A program made the position numbers and the translations under genes. Shown here piece by piece: positions 7,445 to 10,165 of a stretch of 64,000 nucleotides of DNA. Source of the DNA: Pengzhenrongella sicca (GTDB taxonomy: Bacteria; Actinomycetota; Actinomycetes; Actinomycetales; Cellulomonadaceae); contig NZ_CP071868.1 in assembly GCF_017569225.1 (NCBI RefSeq), positions 1,240,001-1,304,000 of the forward strand, in the 5' to 3' direction. Each line of letters opens with the position of its first letter. Position 1 is the stretch's first letter. The notes under the pieces were generated by a model. That model did no database searches. It was given only the letters and a program-made list of their open reading frames with translations, and was not told where the DNA came from.

Positions 7445-7507
7445 CTGCGAGATCGGCCCGGCCGCCGCGGGATGGGCCCGGCACCGCGAGATCGGCCCGG
7501 CCGCCGC
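7445..7507. repeat. Three short GC-rich direct repeats downstream of cysE
   Basis: Between the LLM gene start and the cysE stop the sequence repeats a unit of about 20-21 bases of the form GCGAGATCGGCCCGGCCGCC, the middle copy being diverged (GCGGGATGGGCCCGGCACC). The last copy abuts the cysE stop codon. No function is evident; replication slippage is the simplest origin. Confidence 0.6.
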
Positions 7508-8091
7508 TAGATGTAGATCGCCGGGTCGTCGATGTAGATCTCCGCGACCTGAGACGACGGCCGGTGCCGGATGCGGGCCGGCACGCCGACGGCGATCGCC
7601 CCCGCCGGGACGTCCGTGATGACGACGGCGTTCGCGCCGATCTGCGCCCCGGACCCGATCCAGACCGGGCCGAGGATCTTCGCGCCCGCGCCGACCACGA
7701 CCCCGTCGCCCAGGGTCGGGTGCCGCTTGCCGTGGTGCATCGCCTTGCCGCCGAGCGTCGCGCCGTGGAACAGGGTCACGTCGTCGCCCACCTCGGCCGT
7801 CTCGCCGATCACGACGCCCATGCCGTGGTCGATGAACAGCCGCCGACCGATGCGCGCCGCCGGGTGGATCTCGACCCCGGTCGCCGCCCGGGCTGCCTGG
7901 GAGAGCAGCCGGGCGGCCAACCGCAGGCCGGGCTCGCGCCACATCCGGTGCGAGAGCCGATGGATCCAGATCGCGTGCACGCCGGGGTAGCCCAGGGCCA
8001 CCTCGATCACCGTCCGCGCTGCGGGGTCACGCCGCCGGGCCACCTCGAGGTCCTCGCGCAGCACGGTGAGAAACCGCCGCAGGTCGGGCAT
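7507..8091 (-). CDS. cysE: Serine O-acetyltransferase
   Basis: A short-form (EpsC-like) 194-residue serine acetyltransferase making O-acetylserine from serine and acetyl-CoA for cysteine synthesis. An N-terminal helical part is followed by left-handed beta-helix hexapeptide repeats: [28 protein letters not shown] with the catalytic Asp-His pair, LFHGATLGG and [21 protein letters not shown]. The C-terminus ends in isoleucine (DPAIYI), as needed in many members for docking into CysK. Its ATG shares one base with the TGA of cysK (TGATG), so the two are translationally coupled in a cysK-cysE operon. Confidence 0.95.
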
Positions 8092-9026
8092 CAGTCGAGC
8101 AGATCCGCGTACAGCACCGAGGTGAGGTAGCGCTCGCCGAACGACGGGATGATCACGACGATGAGCTTGCCCGCGTTCTCCGGGCGCTTCGCCAGCAGGA
8201 TCGCGGCGTGGATCGCGGCGCCGGACGAGATCCCGACGAGCAGGCCCTCGCGCTTGGCGGCGTCGCGCGCCACGGCGACGGCGGTCTCGGCGTCGACGTC
8301 GATGATCTCGTCGTAGATCGTGCGGTCGAGGATCTCGGGCACGAAGTTCGCGCCGATGCCCTGGATCTTGTGCGGGCCGGGCGCGCCGCCGTTGAGGATC
8401 GGCGACTCGGCCGGCTCGACCCCGACGATCTGCACGCCGGGCTTGCGCTCCTTGAGCACCTGTCCCACGCCCGTGATCGTCCCGCCGGTCCCGATGCCAG
8501 CGACGACGATGTCGACCGCGCCGTCGGTGTCGTCCCAGATCTCGACGGCCGTCGTGCGCCGGTGGATGTCGACGTTCGCCTGGTTGGCGAACTGCCGCGC
8601 GAGGATCGCACCCGGGCGCTCGGCGACGATCTCGTTGGACTTGTCCACCGCGCCCTTCATGCCGCCCGAGCCGGGCGTGAGGATGAGCTCCGCGCCGAAC
8701 GCGCGCAGCAGAGCGCGCCGCTCGCGCGACATCGTCTCGGGCATCGTCAGCACGACGTCGTAGCCGCGGGCCGCGCCGACCATCGCGAGCGCGATGCCGG
8801 TGTTGCCGCTCGTGGCCTCGACGATCGTGCCGCCGGGCTTGAGCTCGCCGGACGCCTCGGCGGCGTCGACGATCGCGACGCCGATGCGGTCCTTCACCGA
8901 GCTGGCGGGGTTGTAGAACTCGAGCTTGCCGACGACGGTCGCGTCGATCCCCTCGGTGAGCTTGTTGAGCCGGACCAGGGGAGTGTTGCCGACCAGCTTG
9001 GTGACATCGTCATAGATGCGAGACAT
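8091..9026 (-). CDS. cysK: Cysteine synthase A (O-acetylserine sulfhydrylase)
   Basis: A 311-residue PLP enzyme of the beta family that converts O-acetylserine and sulfide to cysteine. The PLP lysine is in [11 protein letters not shown] (Lys45); the substrate loop [10 protein letters not shown] lies near residue 74 and the phosphate-binding [10 protein letters not shown] near 175. Length and start ([20 protein letters not shown]) match the family. It is the first full-size gene of the cysK-cysE operon. A short Cys-rich reading frame with a good ribosome site lies 190 bases upstream on the same strand and may regulate it. Confidence 0.96.
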
Positions 9027-9148
9027 GGATCCTCATGGGGACGGGCCGCGGTGCGGCCGGGGTGGATGCAGACTGAACCGAACGAGTGCCGTGGGTGTTC
9101 CGCGGGCCGGGTGGGCCGGGATCGACGACGGGGGTGCCAGACGGGCCG

Positions 9149-9215
9149 AGCGCTGGGGGGCCGTCCGGATCTCACCCGTTCGGGTGGTCACGCAGGACGG
9201 GACGAGGCCAGCGCT
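9149..9215 (-). promoter_or_regulatory. Candidate attenuator structure between Cys-rich leader and cysK
   Basis: Immediately after the leader stop codon the minus strand reads AGCGCTGG (9215-9208), whose exact complement CCAGCGCT lies at 9156-9149. Between them sits a perfect 6-bp hairpin CACCCG-TT-CGGGTG (9173-9186). These two nested stems could be made dependent on ribosome position at the leader stop. The remaining 120 bases to cysK are GC rich without an obvious U-tract, so whether control would be by termination or by access to the cysK start is open. Confidence 0.45.
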
Positions 9216-9281
9216 CTACAGACAGCGGCAGGCGGGCGCGAGGCGAGCGCACGAGCAGGACGTGCCATGGAGCTGAGCCAT
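9216..9281 (-). CDS. Candidate 21-residue Cys-rich leader peptide of the cysK-cysE operon
   Basis: An ATG at 9281 preceded at suitable spacing by GAGGAGGG opens a 21-codon frame that begins MAQLHGTSCSCARL and ends ACRCL before a TAG stop. Four of 21 residues are cysteine, three of them in two C-x-C pairs or near the C-terminus. The arrangement (short frame, strong ribosome site, rare amino acid concentrated in it, cognate biosynthetic operon downstream on the same strand) is that of translational/transcriptional attenuation leaders; Cys-rich leaders upstream of sulfur genes are known in actinobacteria. Translation of this frame is inferred. Confidence 0.6.
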   Translation of the reverse strand: MAQLHGTSCSCARLAPACRCL

Positions 9282-9442
9282 CGCGCGTCCCTCCTCAGGT
9301 TGCCTCGGCGTCGGTACCGCGACGGTAGCGCCTGCGCCCGGACCTGGCAACGCGGGTCCGCGGGTCGACGGCTCCCAGCCTCCTCCCAGGAGAGACTGAA
9401 CTACTTGCGTGTTCACCTATTCCTCGACGATCGGACCTGTCC

Positions 9443-10165
9443 GTGCGCAAGAAGCTGCTCATCGCCCTGATCGCTGTCGCCGTCGTTCTCGTCGCCGTCG
9501 TCGGCGGTACCGCGCTGTACGCGAGATACGAGAACGGCAAGGCGCCCGAGGCGCTCGGGCTCTCGACCGCGACCTCCACCCCGAGACCGACGGCCGACGG
9601 CGCGGGCGACGCCGACGGCGCCGACGGCGCCGACGGCGCCGGGACGGCAGCCGGCGACCTGTCGGGCGCGTGGACGGTCGGCGACGGCTCGCAGGCCGGC
9701 TACCGGGTCGACGAGGTGCTGAACAACCAGGACGTCACCGTGGTGGGACGCACTGACGACGTCGACGGAACCGTCACGATCGCGGGCACCGACCTGACGG
9801 CGGCCGCGGTCACCGTCTCGATGACGACTGTCGCGACGGACAACTCGGGCCGGGACGGGCAGTTCCTCGACATCCTGCACACCGCCGACTTCCCGACCTC
9901 GACCTTCACGCTCACCTCGCCGGTCGACATCGGCGCCATCACCGCCGGGGTCGCCTCGGTCCAGGCCACCGGCGACCTCACGATCGCCGGCGTCACCGCG
10001 GCCGTCACCGTCGACCTCGAGGCGCAGACGACGGCGACGGGCGTCGAGGTGTCCGGGTCGATCCCCGTGTCCTTCTCCGACTACGGCATCGAAGCCCCGG
10101 ACCTCGGCTTCGTGAAGGTCGAGGACGCGGGAACGGTCGAGATGCTGCTCCAGCTCACCAAATAG
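9443..10165 (+). CDS. Membrane-anchored YceI-like domain protein
   Basis: A 240-residue protein starting with GTG. Residues 4-23 (KLLIALIAVAVVLVAVVGGT) form an uncleaved signal anchor; a low-complexity linker with repeated ADG/GAD units (about residues 50-70) precedes a YceI domain from about residue 74: GAWTVGDGSQAGYRVDEVL, then TVSMTTVATDNSGRDGQF, FPTSTFTLTSPV, GDLTIAGVTAAVTVDL and FSDYGIEAPD. YceI proteins are lipocalin-like barrels that bind isoprenoid-type ligands; the ligand here is unknown. The domain faces the cell exterior. Confidence 0.88.
   Translation: MRKKLLIALIAVAVVLVAVVGGTALYARYENGKAPEALGLSTATSTPRPTADGAGDADGADGADGAGTAAGDLSGAWTVGDGSQAGYRVDEVLNNQDVTVVGRTDDVDGTVTIAGTDLTAAAVTVSMTTVATDNSGRDGQFLDILHTADFPTSTFTLTSPVDIGAITAGVASVQATGDLTIAGVTAAVTVDLEAQTTATGVEVSGSIPVSFSDYGIEAPDLGFVKVEDAGTVEMLLQLTK

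Follow-up and report, generated by a model that had tools for sequence, protein, structure and literature searches.

In attenuators of the trp and his type, a hairpin adjoins codons for the amino acid that the pathway makes. Cysteine-rich leaderless upstream open reading frames (uORFs) of mycobacteria are reportedly the subject of Canestrari et al. 2020. Further papers place such Cys-rich leaderless uORFs upstream of the cysteine-biosynthesis genes of mycobacteria (PMC9031893, PMC9094748, PMC13236596), and leaderless polycysteine frames reportedly act in M. smegmatis. Candidate cysteine leader peptides were listed for Mycobacterium, Propionibacterium acnes and Bifidobacterium longum by Seliverstov et al. 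(2005, PMC1262725), who found no conserved terminator, proposed Rho and left open whether the output step is a terminator, Rho or translation; the Cellulomonadaceae lie outside their set. In E. coli, the access of Rho in tnaC and topAI/toiL, which have a high C:G leader, depends on how a short upstream frame is being translated; tnaC senses free tryptophan and toiL senses antibiotics, both by nascent-chain stalling (PMC12121999).

We analysed a window of 64,000 nucleotides from the genome of Pengzhenrongella sicca (a single contig of 4.4 Mb; GTDB family Cellulomonadaceae). The nearest named genome is that of Pengzhenrongella frigida (CysK identity 93%). The leader element upstream of cysK-cysE is real and strongly conserved. 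Its features, in window positions, are as follows.

7507 to 8091, minus strand: cysE, serine O-acetyltransferase (NF041874 and TIGR01172 over cut-off), overlapping the end of cysK
8091 to 9026, minus strand: cysK, cysteine synthase A (442.8 bits with TIGR01139, whose cut-off is 350.95)
9034 to 9030, minus strand: Shine-Dalgarno sequence of cysK, GAGGA
9033 to 9170, minus strand: C-rich, G-poor untranslated leader, a candidate Rho-loading stretch
9148 to 9156, minus strand: 3' arm of hairpin P1, CCAGCGCUC
9173 to 9186, minus strand: inner hairpin CACCCG-AA-CGGGTG within the P1 loop, confined to this genome
9208 to 9216, minus strand: 5' arm of P1, GAGCGCUGG, its first base being the G of the UAG stop
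9212 to 9224, minus strand: near-invariant motif UGU-CNN-UAG-AGCG (69/82 family regions, 0/56 controls; single copy in its own genome)
9216 to 9281, minus strand: leader frame MAQLHGTSCSCARLAPACRCL with its stop, 21 codons
9257-9255, 9251-9249, 9230-9228 and 9224-9222, minus strand: Cys codons of the leader frame
9289 to 9296, minus strand: Shine-Dalgarno sequence of the leader frame, GAGGAGGG
9322 to 9350, minus strand: predicted sigma-70-type promoter, TTGCCA (9350-9345), 17 nt, TACCGT (9327-9322), expected start near 9315

Like the mycobacterial uORFs, this leader has a short frame with Cys codons clustered near the stop and stands before cysteine-biosynthesis genes; both would share cysteine-dependent elongation as the signal, which for the P1-type leader is suggested by analogy. 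Unlike the leaderless mycobacterial uORFs, the P. sicca frame is led by a Shine-Dalgarno sequence (GAGGAGGG), as is mostly the case in the family. It also differs in having its UAG inside a covarying hairpin, an invariant UGU-CNN-UAG-AGCG and a Micrococcales cysK-cysE operon downstream. With the leaders listed in 2005, the P1-type leader shares Cys codon runs close to the stop and the lack of a conserved terminator, but no conserved hairpins were reported for the mycobacterial ones (PMC1262725), whereas the hairpin here carries compensatory changes. The high C:G leader recalls tnaC and toiL, as would the translation-controlled Rho access that we propose; in contrast to these systems, the signal here would be a shortage of Cys-tRNA, and the hairpin opens at the stop codon. 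Codons for the pathway amino acid next to a hairpin are found as in trp/his-type attenuators, but the P1-type leader lacks an intrinsic terminator and a competing hairpin.

The leader frame and its conservation

The first-pass annotation had placed a strong ribosome site and a 21-codon frame with four cysteines upstream of the operon, and both were confirmed there on the minus strand. The cysteines had been described as lying mainly in C-x-C pairs at the end. Residues 9, 11, 18 and 20 do form two C-x-C pairs, but only one of them is terminal. The predicted peptide and nine related peptides gave no matches to the NCBIfam leader peptide models, which is weak evidence because short peptides score poorly. 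Back to back with the cys operon stands a divergent gene (window 9443-10165, plus strand), whose YceI-like product has a membrane segment at its N terminus.

We sampled cysK upstream regions from 80 named genome-contig records and 90 genomes of the family. The frame scan looked for short frames with a Cys tail; UGU, the codon starting with C, UAG and AGCG were not selection criteria. A Cys-tailed frame was present before cysK in 90/90 family regions (88 by the scan and two more with the motif as anchor). No equivalent frame was found in 56 cysK regions that served as controls and came almost entirely from other Micrococcales (mostly Arthrobacter and Microbacteriaceae). A strict test, requiring a 5-nt Shine-Dalgarno match and a Cys tail, was passed by 60 of the 82 non-redundant family regions, a count that is not fully blind, the 82 having been pre-chosen for a candidate frame. 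Shuffled regions passed the same test 0.05 times in 82 on average, and neither the reverse strand (0/82) nor the control cysK regions (0/56) yielded a pass. Because of the way in which the 82 were chosen, the denominators that matter are 90/90 and 0/56. Conservation of the frame and its Cys codons had been fixed beforehand as a refutation test, and both are kept in close and distant relatives.

The family leader peptides have nearly nothing in common but their ends (CRCL, CCRCL, CCCR, CRCR and similar). Across the 82 regions, the frames contain two to nine Cys codons, the last of which lies exactly two codons ahead of the stop in 81. This last codon is UGU in 79/82 regions and the codon after it begins with C in 81/82; the stop is UAG in 74/82, with AGCG next in 69/82. 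TGTCNNTAGAGCG was found in 69/82 family regions vs 0/56 controls. In the genes of the window, UGC is used 74 times vs 3 times for UGU, and the stops are mostly UGA.

The -10 box of the predicted promoter sits 40 nt ahead of the start codon of the leader frame. Most of the 31 relatives examined have the pattern TTGNNN-17/18-TANNNT ahead of the frame, as a rule 28-46 nt before its start codon. A conserved promoter at this place points to a transcription start upstream of the frame, counter to a start downstream of 9216. No promoter was reported by a strict E. coli-consensus scan of the window leader, as expected because the host is a high-GC actinobacterium. In three relatives (L012, L074 and L119), the end of the -10 box lies only 7-8 nt ahead of the leader start codon, suggesting leaderless translation. 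Leaderless cysK leader frames probably occur within the family too (Myceligenerans L074).

The same genome has a second Cys frame, VTSRLSAPRAAAASTFGCPACCCR with its stop, 188 nt upstream of the sulfite reductase-cysH-cysD operon.

L223 (G000:C1:584000-589500), reverse complement 1459-1533: second Cys frame, VTSRLSAPRAAAASTFGCPACCCR

The GTG of this frame lies 6 nt after a TAGCCT box, indicating that it is probably leaderless. Leaderless Cys-tailed frames were found before the sulfite reductase gene in 15 of 30 family loci; these sulfite-reductase leader frames end in UGA, and the UAG-P1 motif is absent from them. To judge from these sequences, the same organism seems to combine a mycobacterial-type leader for sulfate reduction with the P1 type for cysK-cysE. 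P. sicca has two sulfite reductase-like genes, 89% identical (G000:C1:586079-587779 and 2230892-2232571), and the Cys leader is present only before the first.

Hairpin P1 and its distribution

Right after the leader frame, AGCGCTGG (9215-9208) is followed, 51 nt further, by CCAGCGCT (9156-9149). The outer stem is one pair longer than first noted, as the stop-codon G9216 pairs with C9148. P1 is 9-10 bp long, with its arms at 9216-9208/9156-9148. The arms vary among relatives (GAGCGUUGA/UCAACGCUC, GAGCAUUGA/UCAAUGCUC, GAGCGUCGG/CCGACGCUC and others). P1 exceeded shuffles at p<=0.05 in 60 of the 82 regions, a set not selected for the stem. The covariation alignment comprised 59 sequences, partly chosen for a good stem; 95.9% of its cells were paired, and 6/10 pairs were changed on both sides. 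Cells changed on both sides numbered 32 vs 5.0 in shuffles, and the covariation score was 0.216 vs 0.103 in shuffles and at most 0.068 in the slid alignment. Furthermore, unguided RNAalifold yielded the same P1 stem, and so did the consensus fold of the Xylanimonas/Promicromonospora-like group, which is outside the 59. The P1 region had a stability z of -1.93; the whole leader, with a z of -0.21, is not unusually stable.

Attenuator-like stems had been proposed for this leader. The outer one proved to be conserved with compensatory changes, but the inner CACCCG/CGGGTG hairpin did not prove to be conserved. The latter had been read as CACCCG-TT-CGGGTG; the hairpin is present, but on the RNA strand its apical loop reads AA, not TT. 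We ruled it out as a conserved part, given that the loops of relatives vary in length and sequence. The P1 loop is about 15 to 60 nt long across relatives, and the apical stem pairs covary. A second downstream hairpin (GGAAC...GUUCC), seen by eye in some relatives, was also rejected, as the genus-plus-Cellulomonas consensus fold contained P1 only. The Oerskovia-like members L020, L096, L097 and L100 have a compact P1 hairpin, which may gain an outer CCUGUCG/CGACAGG stem spanning the last Cys codon.

The P1 covariance model R1 found one significant copy in the P. sicca genome and matched 43 of 248 genomes of the order. In eight extra loci from other families of the order, the motif lay before cysK in all eight, and cysE came next wherever the contig was long enough. 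A phylum sample searched with the covariance model gave, besides the own copy, only two weak matches. The weak matches outside the order are L219 and L220 (E 0.004 and 0.009). Rfam 15 returned nothing at the gathering cut-off and nothing with E<=5 on 8990-9480, and no description of a P1-type cysK leader element was found in open-licence papers.

Cellulosimicrobium-like members keep the Cys frame, but its stop is UGA and P1 is absent, indicating that P1 is not always needed. A switch to a different output is possible in these members, judging by their leaders. They (L018, L101, L104, L105, L113 and L114) have a strongly conserved CGAGCCGUCGACAGAAGAGGA directly before cysK, for which partial pairing with the Cys codons is possible.

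Output step and rival explanations

A predicted translated leader frame rich in end-product codons, with a probable transcription start upstream of it, places the element among amino-acid attenuators in the broad sense. The earlier proposal of a cysteine attenuator for this leader holds in its sensing idea but not in its classical layout, as neither a terminator nor a conserved alternative pairing was found. The output step must therefore be something else, most likely Rho as far as the leader sequences indicate. A classical trp-type attenuator built from a terminator and an antiterminator hairpin, the reading of the first-pass annotation, is highly improbable. The positions of the frame, stop codon and hairpin fit such a device, but the leaders contain no terminator-like site and no U-tract (longest T run <=2 in 77/81 leaders). 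No alternative partner of either P1 arm is conserved: in 74 leaders, partners above shuffles (p<=0.05) were found for the 5' arm with the frame in 2/74 and for the 3' arm with downstream sequence in 0/74, whereas P1 itself, the positive control, was recovered in 58/74. The trp-type layout is thus largely refuted. We consider it unlikely that the leader works by translational attenuation, in which a stalled ribosome refolds the RNA and opens the cysK ribosome site while transcription is unchanged. PMC13236596 and PMC9031893 describe the best studied actinobacterial cysteine leaders as translation attenuators, a 10-nt stretch of the P1 loop of P. frigida (L005) can base-pair with the ribosome site of cysK, and the Cys codons of the Cellulosimicrobium group may find a partner directly upstream of that site. 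However, the predicted accessibility of the cysK ribosome site and start codon hardly shifts between stalled and stop-codon states (0.563, 0.550 and 0.548; Wilcoxon p 0.076; 74 leaders). At p<=0.05, the ribosome site found a partner in the leader or in the P1 loop in 3/74 and 3/70, not above shuffles. Nor did the Cys codons or the frame pair with the leader, or with the region around the cysK start, beyond shuffled or dealt controls. The stop-to-cysK distance, which ranges from 89 to 284 nt among relatives, is also too variable to favour translational attenuation. Since the leader is C-rich, has no intrinsic terminator and does not mask the ribosome site in any conserved way, Rho-dependent termination is left as the best candidate for the output. 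C exceeds G in 81/81 family leaders (0.485 vs 0.273), compared with 0.320 vs 0.272 in control cysK upstream regions. In P. sicca, the stretch from 9170 or 9120 ranks, by C minus G, at up to the 99.7th percentile among the 78-nt stretches on both strands of the window, and the genome encodes rho. Rho sites are known for a high C:G ratio (PMC12121999), and the C-rich composition is a weak sign of Rho.

It is very unlikely that P1 with UGUC-NN-UAGAGC is recognised by an RNA-binding protein or serves as a DNA operator, with the Cys frame as a secondary input. The invariance of UGUC, UAG and GAGC/GCUC does exceed the needs of peptide or pairing; nevertheless, the Cys codons are always at the frame end and there is no candidate protein, and a DNA operator would be unlike P1, whose loop varies (about 15 to 60 nt) and whose apical pairs covary. 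A chance frame with a chance hairpin has a vanishingly small probability. Stems are plentiful in high-GC DNA and the whole-leader fold is unremarkable (z -0.21), but the comparative conservation and the controls for frame and P1 refute this explanation.

Proposed mechanism and its meaning

We infer that cysteine is sensed through the leader frame, which is well supported by analogy: with Cys codons by the stop of a leader before cysteine-synthesis genes, stalling-based sensing is the natural reading, as in mycobacteria. Most likely, Cys-starved ribosomes stall at the leader frame and so keep cysK-cysE on. The full proposal, to which we give an even chance, is a cysteine-responsive, ribosome-mediated attenuator of cysK-cysE with P1 as the switch and Rho-dependent termination as the output. 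Transcription would start near 9315, and the leader frame would be translated via its own Shine-Dalgarno sequence. When Cys-tRNA is ample, the ribosome would reach the UAG and block P1 while it sits there; the C-rich untranslated RNA would then be open to Rho, leading to termination ahead of cysK. When cysteine is short, the ribosome would wait at the Cys codons (A site 9230 or earlier) and leave both P1 arms free. P1 would form beside the stalled ribosome and hinder the loading or advance of Rho, and the polymerase would reach cysK-cysE.

The ribosome footprint extends about 12 nt beyond the A site. The first base of P1 is the G of the stop codon, so a ribosome at the UAG is incompatible with P1. 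In contrast, a ribosome at 9230-9228 or earlier leaves the P1 arms free, and P1 is therefore expected to be a sign of starvation. As a lack of cysteine should increase cysK-cysE expression, P1 is expected to act in favour of it. The C-rich tract is in large part downstream of P1, which counts against the step in which P1 hinders Rho.

The Rho/P1 model does not account for the nucleotide-level invariance of UGUC and the base of P1. This invariance would be accounted for, together with that of the whole UGUC-NN-UAG-GAGC, if P1 were an active RNA element (invariant GAGC/GCUC base), exposed by the stalled ribosome and acting directly on RNA polymerase or Rho like the put or EAR antitermination RNAs, which we regard as distinctly unlikely. 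In that case, P1 would be an antiterminator that is gated by the ribosome and tied to the stop codon.

For the proposed attenuator with Rho as its output, the stop codon lies inside the covarying hairpin and the arrival of the ribosome would exclude P1, so the output step is testable by a few point changes. The finding would carry cysteine-codon attenuation beyond mycobacteria, to a further order of actinobacteria and a further operon, cysK-cysE. The Micrococcales would gain a defined switch for cysteine, recognisable by an RNA signature that can be searched for and is not in Rfam 15.
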